Below, one piece after another: positions 14,256 through 48,709 of a stretch of 64,000 nucleotides of DNA. The translations under genes were made by a program, and so were the position numbers. How positions within the stretch are numbered: the stretch's first letter is position 1; every line of letters begins with the position of its first letter. The notes beneath the pieces were generated by a model that saw nothing but the letters and a program-made list of their open reading frames with translations, was not told the DNA's origin and ran no database searches. Source of the stretch: Tieghemostelium lacteum (lineage: Eukaryota; Evosea; Eumycetozoa; Dictyosteliales; Raperosteliaceae); assembly GCA_001606155.1 (NCBI GenBank), contig LODT01000051.1, forward strand, positions 1-64,000, read 5' to 3'.

Positions 14256-16196
14256 ATGTCTTCTATAGGTATTGATTTAGGTACAACTTATTCATGTGTT
14301 GGTAAGTATTTTATTTATAATACCTAAAAAATTAGGAAATAAAATAAAAAGATAGAATATAAAATATTAATACTAGAAAAAATTAAAATAGGTGTTTGGC
14401 AAAATGGGCGTGGAGTTGAAATTATCTCAAATAATCAAGGTAATAGAACTACACCATCTTATGTTGCATTTACAGATACAGAGCGTCTTATTGGTGAAGC
14501 TGCAAAGAACCAAGTTGAAATGAATCCAACAAATTCTGTATTTGATTCCAAAAGACTTATTGGTCGTAAGTTTTCAGATTCAGTTGTACAAAGTGATATG
14601 AAATATTGGCCATTTAAAGTTATTCAGAAAGAAGGTGATAAACCATACATTCAAGGGTGAAACCAAGTCATTTTCACCAGAGGAAATCAGCTCAATGGTT
14701 TTGATTAAGATGAAGGAGACTGCTGAAGCCTACCTTGGAAAGACAGTTCCAAATGCTGTAATTACTGTACCTGCCTATTTTAATGATTCACAAAGACAGG
14801 CTACAAAGGATGCTGGTACCATTGCTAAATTAAATGTTCAACGTATTATTAATGAACCTACTGCAGCTGCTATTGCCTATGGTTTGGAGAAGAAAGGATC
14901 TGGTGAGAAGAATATATTGATTTTTGATTTGGGCGGTGGTACTTTTGATGTTTCCTTGTTGACTATTGATGATGGTGTATTTGAAGTAAAGGCAACTGCT
15001 GGAGATACTCATTTGGGAGGTGAGGATTTTGATAATCGTATGGTTAATTATTTTGTAGAAGAGTTTAAGAGAAAGCACAAGAAGGATTTGATGTCAAATC
15101 AAAGAGCTTTCAGAAGACTTCATACAGCTTGTGAGAGAGCCAAGAGAACATTGTCATCATCAACTCAGGCATCTATTGAAATTGACTCTTTGTTTGAGGG
15201 TATTGATTTCTATACCTCTATCACCAGAGCCATATTTGAAGAACTCAATTCTGACTTGTTCAGTGGTTGTATAGATCCAGTTGAGCAAGTACTCAGAGAC
15301 TCCAAGTTGGATAAAAAATCAATTCATGAAGTTGTATTGGTTGGTGGTAGTACTCGTATTCCAAAAGTTCAACAATTATTACAAGACTTTTTCAATGGAA
15401 AGGAATTGAATAAATCCATTAATCCTGATGAAGCTGTTGCCTATGGTGCTGCTGTTCAAGCCGCCATTTTGTCTAATAAGGGTGGTAATAAAGTTCCTGA
15501 TTTGTTGCTACTTGATGTTACTCCTCTATCTTTAGGTTTGGAGACTGCTGGTGGTGTTATGACTAGTTTGATTCCAAGAAACACTACTATTCCATGCAAG
15601 AAATCTCAAACTTTCTCTACATATTCTGATAATCAACCAGTGTTTTAATTCAAGTCTATGAAGGAGAACATTCTATGACAAAGGATAACAATCTACTAGT
15701 TAAATTTGAACTCTCAGGTATTCCACCAGTACCACAGATTGAAGTAACTTTTGATAATGATGCAAATGGTATTTTGAATGTATCTGCTGAAGATACGACC
15801 ACTGGTAACAAACAAAAGATTACTATTACCAACGATAAAGGTGGTCTGTCAAAGGAGCAAATCGAAAAGATGGTTGCATATGCAGACAAATACAAAAATA
15901 AAGATGAAGAAAAGAATCTTATTAAATCCAAGAACAAACTTGAAAACTATACCTTCCAAGTTAAGAACTCTATAATGGATGAGAAATTTGCGGGTAAAAT
16001 ATCTGAAGATGACAAATCAACTGTTGAGAAGGCTTGTTTTGATACATTGAAATGGATTCATGGTAATCAAACTGCTACAAATGATGAATTTGATCACAAG
16101 ATGAAATCATTAGAAGAAATTGTTAATCCAATCATGACTAAACTCTATCAACAAGGTGGTGGTATGGCAACTGATACTGTTGAAGAACTTGATTAA
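14256..16196 (+). pseudogene. Cytosolic-type Hsp70, decaying copy
   Basis: Hsp70 chaperones fold proteins using ATP. Exon 1 (14256-14301) gives MSSIGIDLGTTYSCVG; the intron is 14302-14391 (GTAAGT..TAG). The ATPase domain is highly conserved but broken twice. At about 14645-14655, KPYIQ runs into a stop and the chain resumes with TFKGETKSF in another frame. This matches loss of 11 bases between two copies of ACATTCAA expected there. At about 15639 one G is missing from the codon after D-N-Q-P. Three residues (R-G-V in relatives) are also missing before P-Q-I-E-V-T-F. The C-terminus is EELD, not the EEVD that recruits co-chaperones. Neither break lies in a long homopolymer, so true decay is more likely than a read error. 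The rest would encode about 630 residues. Confidence 0.85.
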
Positions 16197-19589: not shown

Positions 19590-22500
19590 TTAACTTGGTA
19601 AGCCTGATAGGTAAAAGACTCCCCATTGCTCTAAAGACCCAACTTCTTTCACTTTTAGGATGGCTTTTTGAAGCGCTTTTATCTTGGACTCAGGGGAAGT
19701 ACTACTAATATGTGTCTCGTAGAATACTTTTGCCATTTCCACGGTTTCCTTCGAATCAGGAAGTGGCCAGTACGTAGCAATTATAGATCTTGCTCCTGCA
19801 GCGAAAAATGACCATACTGGTCCAATACTCCCTTCTTGCATTAGGTTTCCCCTTCCCGAATTACAGGCACTCATAAAAACTAGATCTACTTTTAGGGACA
19901 TTTCTGAAATCTCTTTGGAATCGAGCATTTTACTCCCTGACCCTGTCGGCGTAAAATGAAAAGCCCCATTAAAAATAGAAAATGGGTCACGCTCTGGTTT
20001 TTTTTCAATAGTAGCGTGGGAGGCCAGGTGAATACACTTTGCACCCTTTGCGTACTGCTTAAAACTCTCCACCGTTAAAGCCTCTCTAACCAGCTTTTTT
20101 ATTGCCTTATTTTTATACGCCCAGGTTTTTTCTTTTTTGAATATGCCTTCTATCTCTTTTATCTCAGTCCCAGCATTGAAAATTTTTACTCCCAAGTCAT
20201 CTTTGGGAAATCCAGCAAGTAATACAACACCTTCTATCTTATTTATTTCGCGTTTGTGTTTCTTGTCCAGTTCGAATTCTGTTAAAAGTTTATTGAAGGG
20301 GATAGGTTCCTTCATTCTATGGAGCTGAAAAAGCACGCCAATAGACGGCGCTACTGAAATAGCTTTTTTCTCAATGAGGGGGGGTGAATAGTCTCCATTT
20401 TTCAGCTTTTCATGAATCATCCCAAATGGAATATGCCCTAAAAAGCTGTCCGGGATAAATGTACAACTACTAACTTTGTTTTCACAGAAAAGCTCTGCTT
20501 GTATAGGCTTGATAAAAATCTCATACCAAGTCGCCAATCTTTCACTAAATGTTTCATTAGCAATCTTTTTCGCTTCTGAGGAGCTGGTATCAAGTGGTTT
20601 GTAAGGGAAGTCTTCAAAAACCTTTGTATTTAGGGAAGAGAAGTGTTTTTCATCTCTAATAGGAATCTCAAATGGTTTGATATCTCTACTTGTGACAATC
20701 CATGCCTGAATCTGAGGGTCCTGATTTAACTTATCTATATGATAGAAAGTATCTTGCAGATTGTACAGAGGAGTGACTGAGTACACAACAAAGCTTGTGC
20801 AAAGCTCATCAGCGAGCTTCTGCATATCAATACCCCTTAAAGAAATACTACTTTCCACCTTTTGAGATAGCAGAGACTCAAGAGTAATGGCTCTTCTCCT
20901 ATCAGATATCTCTAAAGCTTGAACAGAATCACCTTGCTTTAGGATGCAGGATTCCAAATATTTATAGAGGAGCGAATATTTCTCAAACAGGTTGATTTTC
21001 CACTCGGTTACAGTCATTTTGCCCAAGACTTCCTTTACAGCTTCAATACCTTTCTCAAAATTCTCTTTTGCTAAAGGATATTTTCCTTCGGCCATATAGG
21101 AGCGCCCTATACATGTATAAGAAATAACTATGCCATCCAGGTTTTCATAATTTAAGCCTTCCTCAAATTTTTCTATCGATTCTGGATATTGAGCTCGTTT
21201 ATATAAGAGCATTCCTAAATTGTGAAGGACATTGCATATATGGATTTTATCATCCAAATCACGAGCAAGACCTAAACTCTTGTTATAATGCTCTTCTGCT
21301 TTGCTGAAACAGTCTTTATTTTCTTTTAGACAATTTTTTGTAGATTCCTTTATCTCTTTTATGTTTTGATTTAAATTCTTTTTTAAATTTTTTTTAAATT
21401 TTTTAATTTTAGCTTTTAATTTTGATATGCCTTCTTTCTCAGTTTCTATATCGATTTGTGTGCTTTTTTTCTGTTTCATAGCAATTTTTAGATTTTTCTT
21501 TTTTACAGCCAGCTCTTCTTTGAACTTTATAAAAAGATCACTTAATTGTGCATCTACTAGGTTTTTTAGATCCTCTATCTGTTTTTGTGAAATCCCCTCT
21601 ACTTGGGGTAATTTCTCTTCATAAGCCACACCTAGATAGCAGTGGGCCTGCATCTGATCCCATTCAGAATCTTTTGCGAGCTCTAAGTACCCCTCTAAAG
21701 TATGTATTGCTAACCAATTGTATCCTAAGCGCAAATAAACCATTCCCAATATCCCTTTAGCCTGTCCAATTAGTCGGTCATTACCTGGCTGACCTTGGTT
21801 CTTAGGATCTTGCCAAATTTCCAAGGCATTTTTGATTGATAGAAATGCTTGTACATAGTTTCCTATTTTTTCAAATGCATCACCTAAGTGCTTTTCGGTA
21901 ACCGCTTTCTGTAGGAAGTCATTCCGTTGCTCTGCAAGATCTTTGCATTTCTGATAAACAATGATTCCTTTTTCGTAATCTCCTTGCAAACAGTAGTCAA
22001 TCCCCAGATCAATATTAAGGTCGAATTTTTCTTCTTCTGGGCACCATTCAAGGTACTCCTGGCGTGCAGTTATCAATTCGATGTGGCCTTTAGTGTAAAG
22101 GGGAATAATTTTCTTAAGAACAACCCTCCTGCGAGGATCACTAGTGGAAAGTTCCTCTAAACATTTTTTAAAGAAAAAGAGAGCAATTCCACTCTGATGA
22201 TACTCCAAGCCTATATTTCCAAGCTCAAAACAATATTCATATAAGTTCGATCTCTGACACCTTTTCACATACTGGTCATAGTATACTTTCACATTCTGTT
22301 CATCATCCAAATTCATGCTAGTTTCTATTAATCGCCTGTAATATTTTTCTTCAGCATACTGATCCTTATTTTCTTTTAGGGCTTTGATTGTATAATCTCT
22401 CTCTTCCTTAGACATTTTTAGAAAATAAAATTGAAGACCTATTTTACCATATAGTAGGCTCCTAATTTGCTGATTGATGGTTTCTTTTCCCTTTTCTATC

Positions 22501-22958
22501 AAGTATTTGCATATAAAATAGTGGAACAGTGTTTTGATACATAGCGCTTTATTTCCAAGCAAGTTAGCTTTCTCGTACAATACCCCAAGCATTTTATGAA
22601 GATTAAACATATTCACTAAGCTTAACTTCGTTTTTATCTTGAGAAGATATTGTTCACCTGAAATTCCCTTGATGAGCGCCTCTTCAAACCCTTCGCAAAC
22701 AAAGTTACTTGTCTTTAACGCATTGACTAGCTCTAAAACTATTTTAGGTGTCATTTTAACCGATTCACCTAAGGAATAGGACATAACCTCATTATCTACG
22801 GAGTTTTGATCAGATACGTGGTCCACGTTTTCTTCATAATCATAAGGAAATTCCATTTTTGTAAATCCTGCTGCATTTAAAATATTCAGATTTTTTAATT
22901 CTATTAATTCACCTTTGTTTAACTCTGAAGGTGTATTATTATTATTTGGTTTGTTCAT
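19590..22958 (-). CDS. TPR-CHAT putative caspase-like protease, intact, G/C-rich, probably acquired
   Basis: A single open frame of 1,122 residues with no intron. Residues about 60-500 and 560-680 form helical TPR-like repeats (e.g. A-x-x-x-L-G-x-x-Y/F with E-K-A/G). A strongly basic coiled coil covers about 500-570. From about 700 to the end is a CHAT domain: H-L-A-S-H-A with the likely catalytic His981, and S-A-C-N-S-G-R-G with Cys1032, then F-F-A-A-G-A-R-S-I-I-A-T-Y-W-P. CHAT domains are caspase/separase-fold proteases common in bacteria; TPR-CHAT is the Craspase architecture. Base use is unlike its surroundings: one line (19801-19860) has 28 G/C of 60, against 11 of 60 at 27001-27060. The extreme N-terminus (M-N-K-P-N-N-N-N-T) uses host-like AAT repeats. 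Substrate is unknown. Confidence 0.88.
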   Translation of the reverse strand: MNKPNNNNTPSELNKGELIELKNLNILNAAGFTKMEFPYDYEENVDHVSDQNSVDNEVMSYSLGESVKMTPKIVLELVNALKTSNFVCEGFEEALIKGISGEQYLLKIKTKLSLVNMFNLHKMLGVLYEKANLLGNKALCIKTLFHYFICKYLIEKGKETINQQIRSLLYGKIGLQFYFLKMSKEERDYTIKALKENKDQYAEEKYYRRLIETSMNLDDEQNVKVYYDQYVKRCQRSNLYEYCFELGNIGLEYHQSGIALFFFKKCLEELSTSDPRRRVVLKKIIPLYTKGHIELITARQEYLEWCPEEEKFDLNIDLGIDYCLQGDYEKGIIVYQKCKDLAEQRNDFLQKAVTEKHLGDAFEKIGNYVQAFLSIKNALEIWQDPKNQGQPGNDRLIGQAKGILGMVYLRLGYNWLAIHTLEGYLELAKDSEWDQMQAHCYLGVAYEEKLPQVEGISQKQIEDLKNLVDAQLSDLFIKFKEELAVKKKNLKIAMKQKKSTQIDIETEKEGISKLKAKIKKFKKNLKKNLNQNIKEIKESTKNCLKENKDCFSKAEEHYNKSLGLARDLDDKIHICNVLHNLGMLLYKRAQYPESIEKFEEGLNYENLDGIVISYTCIGRSYMAEGKYPLAKENFEKGIEAVKEVLGKMTVTEWKINLFEKYSLLYKYLESCILKQGDSVQALEISDRRRAITLESLLSQKVESSISLRGIDMQKLADELCTSFVVYSVTPLYNLQDTFYHIDKLNQDPQIQAWIVTSRDIKPFEIPIRDEKHFSSLNTKVFEDFPYKPLDTSSSEAKKIANETFSERLATWYEIFIKPIQAELFCENKVSSCTFIPDSFLGHIPFGMIHEKLKNGDYSPPLIEKKAISVAPSIGVLFQLHRMKEPIPFNKLLTEFELDKKHKREINKIEGVVLLAGFPKDDLGVKIFNAGTEIKEIEGIFKKEKTWAYKNKAIKKLVREALTVESFKQYAKGAKCIHLASHATIEKKPERDPFSIFNGAFHFTPTGSGSKMLDSKEISEMSLKVDLVFMSACNSGRGNLMQEGSIGPVWSFFAAGARSIIATYWPLPDSKETVEMAKVFYETHISSTSPESKIKALQKAILKVKEVGSLEQWGVFYLSGLPS

Positions 22959-32775: not shown

Positions 32776-35700
32776 ATGAATAACACCAACAATATTAAGA
32801 AATACGGTAGAAATAGTAAATCAACAGCAGCAACAACAACAACACCACAGAATGAAGTAGAAGAACAAAATTTGGAAGTAATTAGCAATCTATTTTCAGG
32901 TATAAATTTCTTATTGTTAGGATTTAATCTTAAAGAAAATAGTAAACTAAAGCAATTGATAAAGAGTTATGGTGGGGATGTATGTTTAGTGTTAAATAAA
33001 AATATACATTACCTTATCACTACCAAAGAGGAATTTGAAAAGAATTCTTCAAAAATTCAACAGGCTTTGAAATTGGAGAACTTGGAGATTGTTGATCATG
33101 ATTTTGTCACTACTCTGTGTTTTAAAAAGAGATCTCTAGATTTGACAATTATTGATGACCATAGACTCTATAAAAGATCACCAAAACACTCGTCATCATC
33201 AACATCTTCATCAGCAACATCAATACAAGAATCACTATTTAAATTGGACTTAAAATCAGATAGTACCACCAAAACATTAAAAAAGAAATCACAAAGTTTA
33301 AATGCACTGGAAAATATTAGTAAAGCAAAAAGAACTCTAAAGTTATTTGTTAGTTCTACATTCCTGGATATGACAAAAGAAAGAGAGTACATTAGTAACT
33401 ATTTAATACCACAACTGAAGGAATATTGTAACAATAGAATGATTGAATTAACACATGTTGATATGAGATGGGGTATAACCAATGAAGAAATGAAAAGAAA
33501 GAATACCATTGCCACTTGTCTAAATGAAGTGCAAAATTCAAATTATTTTATTTCTCTACTTGGTCAGAGATATGGTTGGTCACAAGGTGCTGAATATGAT
33601 GAATCATATCAATTGGCAACTACATATTTCCCATGGTTGTCTCAAGATGGCACGATGAAAAATCGATCCATTACAGAACTAGAAATAATTCAAGCTCTAA
33701 AGAATTCAAATAGAAACTGTTTCTTTTATCATAAACAATTACCTAAAGATGGTTCTACTAAACTTTCACAAGAAATGACTGGAGAAGATCAATCACCAGA
33801 ATCTATCGATAAACTTGTATCTCTTAAAAAATCACTATTAGATAAAAATCTTCAAAATTATTTTGAAATTAATGAATTAATATCTGTATGTACTCCCTAC
33901 TCTCAACACTCAATATTTAAAATAATATTAACACATTATTTTTTAAACTAATAGTTAATATATAAAGATATAATTAAAAGAATTGAAAAAGAATATCCAT
34001 TGGAAAGTGATAGTGACCAATCACAATACCAAATTGATAAACATCTATCCTATTCACAATCAATGTTGAAATATTATATTTCAAATAATCCAATAGTTCA
34101 CACTAGATTGAATCAATATGTTGTTAGTAGTCAATTGAGAAGCAGTGTATCATCAGATAATCAGGTTGTCATTTTAACAGGTCCATCTGGTTATGGTAAA
34201 TCAACTTTGATTTCTAATTGGTTACTCAAAGTTAGTCAATCAAAAACTACACTGGATCCAAAGAAATCATTAGTAGTATTACATCACATTGGTATAACAT
34301 CAACCAATCGTTGGGATATACTAAAACAATTGTACCAAATTATTAAAAGCCATTATCAAGTGAATGTACCTATTAGTGATGATCAACCTCAGTCACTATT
34401 AGAAGAGATGAATTATTGGTTTGATGTAGCAACTAGGGATGGAAAGAAACTAGTTTGGATTCTAGATGGTATAGAACACATTGAAAAAAGTTCGAATGAA
34501 AGTATAAGTGAATCAATGTTATGGTTACCTACTAAATTCACTAGTAATATAAAACTAATCTATAGCATTTCCTCTGACCAATCTGATAAATTGGAAGTTC
34601 TTCAAAAGCTCTACCCTAATCACACTACACTGAATCTAAAAGGATTTGATACACCAGAATTGGTTGTAGAATTCTCTAGAGAATATCTAAAATTCTATTC
34701 AAAGGAATTAGATCCAGTTCAATTAGAAATTTTAAAAAAAGTTCACAAACCATGTGAATCACCTCTATTTCTCTCTACAGTATTAGGACAACTGGTTTCT
34801 ATTGGTAATTTTGAAAATCTGAATGAAAAACTAATTCAACTACTTTTAACACAAATGGTTTTGGCATTGTATATTACCATTATTAACCGTTGGGAACAAG
34901 ATGAAAACTATCCTAAAGGTATGTGCTCACAGATTCTAAGTCTTATCTATCTCTCTGAAGTTGGACTCTATGAAAATGAGATTCTTGATATTCTTGCATT
35001 AAAATCGTCATATGGTTTCTTTAGTGCCATTAGAATGCTATTTAGTTCTTCAAGTAATTTCTTTTCAGTACATCAATCACCATGGTTGAAACTAGCAATT
35101 AAATTTAAATATTTTCCACAAGACCAAGATGATCAGAATCCAACTAGTATAAAATTAAAATCTGATATGGCATCTTATTTCTATTCTTCATTAAAAAAGT
35201 CAAATAATGCTAGTACTAAGAGATATATTGACTATATACCTAGACTGTTGGTGAACATTGGTGATAAATCAATGCTAAAAGAGTATCTTTTAGATTTCAG
35301 TGTACTCTCTCATTTGATATCAACAGATTCTCAGAGAAGATCATTGGTAAACTATTGGAAATCTCTAGGCTACCAAAATAAGGAACTTATCAGTTTCTAT
35401 CAAGTAAACTATAGTGAAAGCTATAAGAGATCAAATCCACCAATGGAAGAGTTCTCACAGGTTACATTATATCTAGCTAAACTCTTTGAGTATCTATCAT
35501 TTTATGACCTGGCATTTGAATTCTTGGATACCTCTAAAGACTATCACGTTCAACTCTATGGTGAACTCCATCCCAAAGTTCTAATGGACATTGAACAGTT
35601 ATCCTACCTCTCTATAAAAAGATCAAAATTTGAAACTGCTGAATATCTAGCTGAGAAATCACTATCTATTGCCGAAACACTCTATGGAAAAGAACAAATT

Positions 35701-37239
35701 GGTACATGCGAATCACACAAGTTAAACGGTTTCATCCAAAAAAAACTGACAAACTATAAGTCCGCAAAAGAATTTTATGAAAATGCCATTCTAATATTAT
35801 GTAGATATTTGGGATACACATCATCACCTATCATTGAAAGTAATAATCAACTTGAAAACAATAATAACAATGAAAAATCAAGTAAACTATTTAATTCTAA
35901 ATTGGCAGATTTGTATTATCATCTCGGTGATATCTATAGAAAATTGTCAAATCATGAATTGGCATTAGACTATTACAATAGAACTATTGAAGTCTATAGT
36001 AATCTAAGAGACCACCAACACCCATCATTTGCACCACTCTATAGAAACTTGGGTTTGGTTGAAAAGAAATTAGGTAAATATCAAGATGCTGTAAAATACT
36101 ATCAATTGGCTTTGAATATTATAAAGACAAATGTTGGTGAGGATCACGCTGAATTTGGGTTGTGTCAATGTGATTTGGCAGATACCTATAGAAAGCAAGA
36201 TAACTACAAGGAGGCAGAGTCACTCTATCAGAAATCACTCATTATTTTAAAATCAAAATTGGGTGAAAATGATATTGAGGTGGCTGAAGTTTACAATGAT
36301 CTAGGTCTGATTAGAAAGAAACTCAGTCAGTACAATGAAGCTATTGAATTTTACAAGAAAGCCATTGTAATTGCTGAAGATACCCTCGGTGGTAAACACC
36401 AAAAAGTTTCATTTTACAATCATAATTTGGCTGATTGTTACAGAAAACTAGGTGACTATAAGAAAGCTGAACAATTATTCCTCAAATGTCTATTGATAAC
36501 TCAAGAGCATTTGGGATCTGATCATCCAGAGGTTGCTGAAATTCTAAATTCACTTGGATTGGTATATAAGAAGCAATCGAAATATACTTTTGCAGAGAGA
36601 GAATATAAACGTTCCATTCAGATTGTTCAACGTGCACTTGGCCCTGACCACTACAAAGTTGCAATCTACACTAACAATCTAGCTGATGTCTATAGAAAAA
36701 TGACAAAATATGATCAAGCCAAAATACTCTATCAAAAAGCACTAGTACTCATAGAAAAGGCTTTTGGAAACACTCATTCTGAATATGCTGAGGTACTCTA
36801 TGGTCAAGGTCTGAATAATCTATGTTTACAGGATTTCCCAAATGCCATTCGTTTAATTCAAACTGCTATTGATATTGTAAAAAAGGAATTGGGTGATAAT
36901 CATGCAAAAGTTGGTATCTATATGAATTCTCTTGCTGAGACTTTAATTGCAAAATTAAATTCACAGGCAAATTCAACCAACACACACGAGATTTTAGATG
37001 AATTAGATCAAATTAGATTAATGTATGACCAATCTTATGACATTTTATTGAAAGATTTGGGTCCACATCATCCTGAAATTGCTGATATCCTCACCAATAG
37101 AGCTGAATTTGAATTCAAATGGGGATCTCATCAACTTTCAAAAGAATACTTTGAAAAAGCTCTAGAAATCATTAAAATTGCTTTTGATGAAGAACATATC
37201 AAATATAAAACTATAAGTGATAGAATTAGATATTTCTAA
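32776..37239 (+). CDS. BRCT-DUF4062-NACHT-TPR STAND NTPase (nephrocystin-3-like)
   Basis: Two exons, 32776-33885 and 33955-37239, with a 69-base intron (GTATGT..TAG); 1,464 residues. Residues about 30-125 read as a BRCT domain (L-F-S-G-I-N-F, Y-G-G-D-V, I-V-D-H-D-F-V). Residues about 190-320 are DUF4062 (L-F-V-S-S-T-F-L-D-M, then D-M-R-W-G-I-T and G-Q-R-Y-G-W). A NACHT ATPase follows, with Walker A G-P-S-G-Y-G-K-S-T at 446-454 and Walker B-like L-V-W-I-L-D-G. The last 600 residues are at least ten 42-residue TPRs of the kinesin-light-chain/nephrocystin kind (A-x-x-Y-x-x-A-L, G-x-x-H-P-E-V-A). STAND proteins switch by nucleotide-driven assembly. DUF4062-NACHT-TPR resembles NPHP3, but the BRCT is unusual. 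Confidence 0.88.
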
Positions 37240-46976: not shown

Positions 46977-48709
46977 ATGATAGAAGAGCAGGAGTTTGAT
47001 AACGATGTTTTCTCTGATGGAGAAGCAGAGGCAATATCCCCTTCTGTAGAAGAATATGAGGAAATAGAATGTAAATATTTTGATACTAAATTCAATACAC
47101 CCAAACATTTTTTTAACATTATAATCAGATATAGAGAGTGATTTACAAAAAAAACTCGCCAAAGATTTGAAGGAAATATGTAAAGATAGAGGCTATAGCC
47201 AACAGGGATCAAAAACTGATCTTATTAAACGTATATTAACTAAAGATCAAGGTACAGACAATGATTGGTCACCAGATATCGTAAAATCAGACAAATGTGA
47301 AGTTAAAAAAAATGTAAAAACAGGATTAAGAAATAAGTCACAACCCAAAAGACCCTATGACAGCTTCAGTCTTTTGTTCTCATCAGATATCATAGATTTA
47401 ATAGTGAATCAAACTCGCCTTTATATCAAGCAAAATGATTTGGAGAGTAAAGCTATTAAAATACTTGGTTCGGAGGTCAATTGTTATATGATATATGCAT
47501 TTTTGAGTATCACTATTCAAATGGGTATATGCACTCTACCATCAATTTCCTACTATTGGTCAGAAACGAATGGATATGAACCAGTCCAAAGAATAATGCC
47601 TAGAAGTAAATTTATGTTCCTCCATAGTGTAATACATTTAGCTGATAATAAAGTTGACGACAAAACTGATGCATTTTTTAAAGTAAGAGAATATCTAAAC
47701 TTGCTTTTAAGAAATTATCAGGAGCATTGGTATCCTTCAGAGATTGTTACAATAGATGAAGACATGATACCATCAAACCATCAGCACGACAAGTCGAAAC
47801 AATATCCACCAAATAAACCTAATAAATGGGGGTTCAGAGTTTGGAAATTAGTAGATAGCAATGGTTATATGTATAACATGGATTTCTATCAAGGAAAAAA
47901 CCCAATAAATGAGAACTCTGGTAAAATGATGGGTAGTTTAGGCGAAAGTGTAGTTAAACAGCTCATGGAACCCATAATTTTTAAAAAAAACTGAAAGTCA
48001 CTTATTTTTAGATAACAATTATACCTCTGTAAAATTACTTGAAGATATGAAAAAAAAAAATGTATTCATTACAGGAACCATTAGAGAAACATCATCCCTT
48101 TTTCCTAAATCATCAATTAGAACTATAAACCTTGAGGAAAAAGCTTATTTCACAAGATACAGAAACATGTTAGGGTTTTGGAGAATCTCATACAGTAAAC
48201 CAATTAATTTAATTTCATCATTAATATCAAATGGAGAGACATTTGAGGAAACTAAATTATATCCGAAGCCCTCTGTTACAACTTACCCATTAGAACTTAA
48301 GTGGTTCAAAGAGAATATAGGCCACTGCGACCATCATAACAAAACCATTGGTACTTATTTTAATAAGACTAATTCTAAAAGGTGGTGGCTCATTATTTTT
48401 AAATATCTATTGTATGCTACTTTAGTTAATGGACATTGTATCCATTCACAAAATTCCACAATATCATACCTTGACTATATAACTTATGTTTCGGAGAGTC
48501 TGGAGTTTCTATCAAGGTGTTCGCAAATGGCAATTGCTCAAGAAGTCAGATCCCTCCCAACTTCACATATTTTAGTAAAAATTAAAATTAGAAAAACATG
48601 TCAATGCGGAAATTCTAAATGCAATTCAAGTACAGACCATTTTTGTAAAAAGTGTAATATACACATATCGCCGACCCATTTTGTTGAAACTCAACATTAT
48701 TTAAAATAA
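46977..48709 (+). mobile_element. piggyBac-type transposase gene with N-terminal SAP domain
   Basis: Cut-and-paste transposase of the DDD piggyBac superfamily. Exon 1 starts at ATG 46977; the intron is 47071-47128 (GTAAAT..CAG). Residues after the splice form a SAP DNA-binding motif (D-L-K-E-I-C-K-D-R-G-Y, then G-S-K-T-D-L-I-K-R-I-L). The catalytic core follows: V-T-I-D-E-D-M-I-P, L-F-L-D-N-N-Y-T-S and G-H-C-D-H-H-N, holding the three expected Asp residues. The tail is a Cys/His ring (C-Q-C-G-N-S-K-C, then C-K-K-C). The frame breaks once in an A8 run at about 47985-47992; one fewer A restores it. I found no TTAA-CCC terminal repeats close by, so it may be a domesticated gene, an end-less remnant or a slightly damaged element. 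Confidence 0.85.

Follow-up and report, generated by a model that had tools for sequence, protein, structure and literature searches.

How did a whole gene for a caspase-like protease come to lie among broken host sequences in the chromosome of a social amoeba, and does the amoeba use it? The question is raised by 64,000 nucleotides of Tieghemostelium lacteum DNA (the window), the first 64 kb of a 1,033,787-base contig (C40) in an assembly of 43 contigs and 23,333,832 bases. At positions 19590–22958, on the reverse strand, the window carries a gene whose product joins tetratricopeptide repeats (TPRs) to a CHAT protease domain. A first-pass annotation had proposed acquisition from bacteria, perhaps from an amoeba-associated lineage. 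Our comparisons support that proposal and allow the lineage to be named as Rhabdochlamydiaceae. Taken as one statement, a recent horizontal capture of a rhabdochlamydial TPR-CHAT gene by the amoeba appears very probable and well supported from sequence.

The gene and its predicted product

The gene is a single intronless open reading frame (ORF) of 1,122 codons running from ATG to stop, as first described. Its parts, all on the reverse strand, are as follows.

19590–22958, reverse: intact TPR-CHAT gene, 1,122 amino acids, probably of rhabdochlamydial origin (ORF, Pfam, nearest relative, trees)
22887–22958, reverse: N-terminal leader with an asparagine run, codons 1–24, preceding the family's N-terminal motif (a weak call, on few codons)
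21675–22472, reverse: first helical-repeat (TPR-type) array, residues ~163–428 (model helices, TPR matches)
21315–21596, reverse: lysine-rich coiled coil, residues ~455–548 (alignment of 36 proteins, structure model)
20865–21320, reverse: second TPR array and linker, residues ~547–698 (Pfam, structure model)
19602–20534, reverse: CHAT caspase-like protease domain, residues 809–1119 (Pfam, predicted fold)
20016–20018, reverse: codon of the predicted catalytic His981 (HLASHATIE; alignment columns)
19863–19865, reverse: codon of the predicted catalytic Cys1032 (MSACNSGRG; alignment columns)

The elements named in the first-pass annotation were confirmed. The CHAT domain matches PF12770 over residues 809–1119 (E 5e-30; 105.4 bits against a curated cut-off of 24), three TPR models of Pfam score above their cut-offs, and the basic coiled coil holds 26 lysines in 95 residues. 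The predicted fold of the protein resembles Csx29 and separase, in keeping with the caspase/separase fold that the first-pass annotation had cited for CHAT proteins. The protein is probably built to work, and would presumably be active, as a cysteine protease.

Relatives and origin

The nearest relative of the window protein (P0001), other than itself, is P0002, a protein of equal length from a metagenome-assembled genome (MAG) of Candidatus Rhabdochlamydia sp., with 41% identity over 98% of its length. The next match is only 22% identical (23 matches, 8,000 candidates scored). A second search with the last 463 residues of P0002 returned 86 proteins, query and window protein included. By the names their sources gave them, which are the group labels used throughout, 20 belong to Rhabdochlamydia, 10 to a Rhabdochlamydiaceae symbiont of Dictyostelium giganteum, 25 to Protochlamydia and 30 to others. 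The D. giganteum symbiont thus has at least ten TPR-CHAT proteins (P0026, P0027, P0029, P0031, P0034, P0038, P0040, P0041, P0048 and P0051), the longest contig being 1,743,983 bases for each.

Both protein searches together gave 107 proteins, of which 105 matched the seed profile, and the 79 with at least 150 bits were used for a first tree. A more careful tree was built from 46 of these 79 rows, chosen by hand, and an alignment (A3) from 36 of the 107 proteins. In the 79-row tree, the window gene and P0002 form a sister pair (Shimodaira–Hasegawa-like approximate likelihood ratio test, SH-aLRT, 99), which then joins P0024 (100), inside 30 rhabdochlamydial rows (99); the careful tree gave support of 100/99 on each of the same three branches. 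Forcing 24 rhabdochlamydial rows together without the window gene cost 134 log units (approximately unbiased test, p 1.8e-5). TPR-CHAT proteins of Protochlamydia are neighbours in both trees. By this nested position, the window gene falls within a rhabdochlamydial TPR-CHAT subfamily, and the same nesting gives the direction of transfer, from bacterium to amoeba.

The alignment agrees with the trees. A lysine-rich coil of about 94–102 residues between the TPRs was found in two of the 36 aligned proteins only, the window's and P0002. The window protein retains all 23 residues that do not vary among the other 35 rows, together with 74 of the 78 that are invariant across 19 rhabdochlamydial rows. 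At both positions of the predicted catalytic dyad, His981 and Cys1032, all 36 rows have the same residue, in the CHAT context first assigned to the dyad. The residue after the predicted catalytic histidine (window 20013–20018) is alanine and not glycine, likewise in P0002 and P0007 among the 36 rows, and is threonine in P0024.

Close dictyostelid orthologues, by which the first-pass annotation would have recognized an old host family, were not seen. No named protein among the 23 matches (8,000 candidates scored, many matches without a name) is dictyostelid except the window's own. The same database yields two other dictyostelids, Heterostelium album and Dictyostelium purpureum, as the only two other relatives of a neighbouring gene.

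Genome contigs were also scanned. With P0002 alone no relative was found there, and with alignment A2 three loci were found, all in one MAG labelled Verrucomicrobia. Six of 232 genomes of that MAG's phylum matched at E 1e-20, the best being 46–49% identical over about 168 residues; this search gave 18 loci, 13 of which were used for codons and 13 for a CHAT profile. A plasmid search returned 35 records, all below 60% identity, and the 15 listed, at 24–27%, are all cyanobacterial by name. The matches in PADLOC were two, both weak (E 0.015 and 0.022).

Composition and codon usage

The gene had been described as having about twice the G/C of neighbouring coding DNA, from a count of one line. Over its full length the excess is much smaller: G+C is 36.2% in the gene, 30.4% in a pool of 17 host ORFs from the window and 27.3% in the flanks, or 21.7 versus 18.3 bases per 60 for gene and host ORFs. 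Third-position G+C is 34.1% in the gene, 15–24% in the 17 host ORFs, and 17–31.5% in 18 further host ORFs taken from 48 kb of six contigs.

Codon preference separates the gene more sharply. On a log-ratio scale of host over chlamydial preference, the gene has a value of −0.109. The values are +0.096 to +0.217 for the 17 host ORFs (each scored with itself excluded), positive in all 18 further host ORFs (lowest 0.001), and −0.133 to −0.253 for seven chlamydial CHAT genes outside the training set. When all 13 chlamydial genes were used for the model, the window gene scored −0.14 and the 13 themselves, being in the training set, −0.17 to −0.30. The gene therefore falls with the chlamydial genes, which none of the 35 host ORFs does. 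Of its 60-codon segments, 33 of 36 are negative, versus 2.9% of 310 in host ORFs, and the codons CGC and CGG together occur six times in the gene but are absent from the 10,055 host codons counted. The gene thus does carry a foreign signal, which shows in codon choice more clearly than in G+C.

Surroundings of the gene

Comparison with the rest of the genome identified the following features around the gene.

14256–16196, forward strand: broken Hsp70 copy, ~95% identical to an unbroken copy on contig C11
16296–19196, no strand assigned: degraded host duplicates in pieces, ~90–97% identical to copies on C4 and C19
19341–19495, no strand assigned: host repeat with a 98.7% identical counterpart on C11, ending 94 bases short of the stop codon
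23149–24991, no strand assigned: host transposon-like repeat, contiguous at C30:652710–653975, 190 bases from the start codon
23473–24034, no strand assigned: TTAA-flanked element with terminal inverted repeats, probably a miniature inverted-repeat transposable element, inside the transposon-like repeat

The first-pass annotation placed the gene in a graveyard of broken genes. This holds for the immediate surroundings, where host repeats and degraded duplicates occupy 16.3–19.5 kb and 23.15–25.0 kb next to the decayed Hsp70. The decay is local only, as long open frames resume before 14.1 kb and from 26.4 kb, and the genes neighbouring the CHAT gene look amoebal. For the unique strips that adjoin the gene, our searches found no other copy.

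The transposon-like repeat, contiguous on C30, is split in the window by the TTAA-flanked element, whose end sequence, with one mismatch allowed, occurs at nine genome sites, including two in the window. A transposase with a DDE_Tnp_1_7 domain, in two frames, lies at 47167–48709; we take it to be of the piggyBac type, and it may be related to the TTAA-flanked element. A host gene at 32776–37239, with a NACHT match and many nephrocystin-type TPRs, resembles an NLR-type receptor; its open frames meet at 33951.

Age of the probable insertion and possible use by the amoeba

The Hsp70 copy differs at 107 of 1,851 bases from a 642-codon open stretch on C11. The differences are spread over the codon positions as 37, 31 and 39, and there are eight gaps, four of them frame-shifting, although some gaps could be 454 sequencing errors. 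Because of this even spread and the frame-shifting gaps, the copy decays as if neutral, and it is a usable local clock for neutral decay. Calibrated by the local Hsp70 rate, with about 7% of substitutions making a stop and an assumed twofold bias to A/T, an unconstrained frame of the gene's length would stay whole with a probability of 0.48 at 0.2% divergence, 0.16 at 0.5% and 0.025 at 1%. Consequently, the gene either came much later than the Hsp70 duplication or is constrained. Late arrival is favored because the codons are not host-like, and the arrival looks recent on these sequence grounds.

The first reading had taken the intact frame to argue for selection or recent arrival. Of the two, recent arrival is the one favored; the open frame alone is no proof of selection, since a neutral insert at 0.2–0.5% divergence could remain whole with the probabilities just given. 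Two views of the gene share the rhabdochlamydial origin and differ on use. The gene may be a neutral passenger, lately inserted, unexpressed or unused, which will decay like its neighbors. We give this close to an even chance, as the codons are unameliorated, host gene duplicates around the gene are decaying, and the frame could be whole by chance at the divergences just given. The retained invariant residues speak against a passenger, though most of that history is the donor's, and so does a weak hint of a host 5' end.

That hint comes from the leader. Many rhabdochlamydial relatives begin a few residues ahead of a motif such as LLTTAGLIKI. Judged by eye, the window protein has an N-terminal motif of this ILTxAGxxK type (ILNAAGFTK), but at residue 26, behind a leader with four consecutive asparagines. 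Codons 1–36 are host-like with a score of +5.06, a value reached by 0.4% of segments in the rest of the gene and 0.26% of 8,423 chlamydial segments; the test covers no more than 36 codons, and a segment further along the gene has the higher score of 5.77. Residues 1–22 have a predicted local distance difference test value (pLDDT) below 50 in the structure model. This thin evidence hints at a host-derived or host-adapted start where a bacterial gene would carry its secretion signal.

Alternatively, the amoeba may express the protease for its own ends, for instance to resist or manage chlamydial symbionts or to carry out regulated cell death. The whole frame, the intact dyad and the predicted separase- and Csx29-like fold are consistent with such domestication. 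For example, a fungal TPR-bearing CHAT protease activates a gasdermin (PMC12881547), which suggests that such enzymes can serve eukaryotes. However, if the gene arrived recently, selection has had little time to become visible. We consider domestication somewhat unlikely. Its most specific form is a speculative proposal that we think unlikely: the amoeba itself would make a symbiont effector protease whose secretion end has given way to a host-style leader, and would use it either to keep chlamydial symbionts in check or resist them, or to set off its own cell death, and we would be seeing it soon after capture.

Strength of the case for capture

Several points weigh against the capture or limit it. 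The window protein and P0002 are just 41% alike, which implies that the true donor is unsampled; P0002 was compared at the protein level, and P0024 is a long branch in the trees. Four of the 78 rhabdochlamydial invariants are changed. Three of the 36 codon segments (codons 1–60, 481–540 and 511–570) are host-like, and the chlamydial codon model was drawn from genomes other than the donor's. The junctions between gene and host DNA are those of the assembly, and are to that extent provisional.

This last point bears on a possible artefact, either a chimeric assembly or contaminating DNA from a chlamydial symbiont that the sequenced strain carried, for which the unameliorated codons and the 454-based assembly (PMC4931340) could also be cited. 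In a 1.03-Mb contig that has host repeats at 94 and 190 bases from the gene, such an error would take two false joins that enclose this one gene exactly. The genome project prepared nuclei and mapped fosmid ends (PMC4931340). The 23.3-Mb assembly gave no match to bacterial 16S (control positive in 9 of 14 genomes), to the export protein FHIPEP (4 of 14) or to TLC nucleotide transporters; for the last, the standard controls gave 0 of 14, and three of three chlamydial-phylum genomes, chosen from the six CHAT-matching ones, were positive. Contamination as a simple answer was rejected on these grounds, and either artefact is very unlikely.

Amoeba viruses are known to carry cellular genes, and one could have been the carrier. 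Two scans of viral contigs found no encoded relative, a weak argument as the patterns reach only relatives that share them, and we regard this route as highly improbable. An old, vertically inherited host family, for which cnidarian matches (P0008 and P0010) could be cited as TPR-CHAT proteins of eukaryotes, is the least credible origin of all, given a single CHAT match in the amoeba genome, the lack of another dictyostelid among the named matches and the nesting inside chlamydial rows.

Proposed mechanism and significance

Under horizontal capture, a gene of the expanded Rhabdochlamydiaceae TPR-CHAT family would recently have entered the amoeba's nuclear chromosome, landing among host repeats. 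The TPR superhelices and basic coiled coil would hold a partner or substrate, which the C-terminal CHAT domain (His981/Cys1032) would cut, as in separase and Csx29. If made by the amoeba, the protein could dispense with secretion, and its site of action would be the cytosol, where the bacterial version would be delivered. Expression in the amoeba is presumed, and secretion of the donor protein is inferred from the related PEX2 family of Protochlamydia. This family has TPRs followed by a C-terminal CHAT domain and is expanded, with a tandem array; it was described as a reservoir of putative effectors that would reach amoebae through type III secretion, and for one member put to the test a functional type III secretion signal was reported (Domman et al. 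2014, PMC4209131). By analogy with PEX2, the window gene is most likely a captured effector-type gene.

Rhabdochlamydiaceae are intracellular bacteria whose hosts include social amoebae (PMC9723776), and prokaryote-like enzymes of social amoebae are the subject of another paper (PMC10733785). In the literature searched, at title and abstract level and with most subscription papers outside it, a chlamydial CHAT gene in a dictyostelid was not reported. The nearest relatives of the gene lie in an intracellular lineage with social-amoeba members and in an effector-type family, where a published account names prey as the source of transfers. As the gene is young enough for donor-like codons to be visible and whole enough to encode a protein, it allows the reuse of symbiont effectors by hosts to be tested directly, and genome editing has been announced for social amoebae (PMC13046832). 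It is also a starting point for watching domestication or decay next to neighbors that are already decaying. If domestication were true, we would be seeing, at an early stage after its capture, a symbiont's effector being made into a gene of the host.

Comparison with known systems

The closest likeness is to P0002 and its Rhabdochlamydiaceae paralogues. P0002 shares length, domain order, coil and a similar N-terminal motif, in addition to the identity noted above; the window gene differs in lying in a eukaryotic chromosome between host repeats and in its longer, asparagine-rich leader.

Craspase, the type III-E CRISPR system whose TPR-CHAT protease is Csx29, had also been mentioned in connection with the gene. 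The predicted fold is alike, at 10% identity. Membership was rejected, as the Csx29 model NF041237 (NCBIfam, cut-off 300 bits) had no match at E 0.01 in the window protein or P0002; the relative P0026 reached 30 bits, far below the cut-off. Separase, the eukaryotic cohesin protease, is likewise similar in predicted fold, at 14% identity. Among solved structures, a full-profile search was filled by TPR proteins, and a CHAT-only profile of 14 rows matched DdvA (8rot) at 2.6e-11, separase at 0.087 and Craspase at 0.66.

With PEX2, the window gene shares TPRs, a C-terminal CHAT domain and an expanded family. PEX2 is a separate clade, however, and the type III signal was demonstrated in one of its own members and not within the window gene's subfamily. 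Six CHAT matches within 46 kb of one genome of the phylum of G001 (G100:C1:61814–107983) resemble the published PEX2 array.

The genes iptA, dgcA and chlA are earlier examples of transfer from bacteria to dictyostelids, which the T. lacteum genome paper traces to bacterial prey, dgcA being present in all dictyostelids (PMC4931340). Like them, the window gene would be a bacterial gene in a social amoeba. The window gene itself keeps donor-like codons and appears to stem from a lineage of intracellular symbionts rather than from prey.
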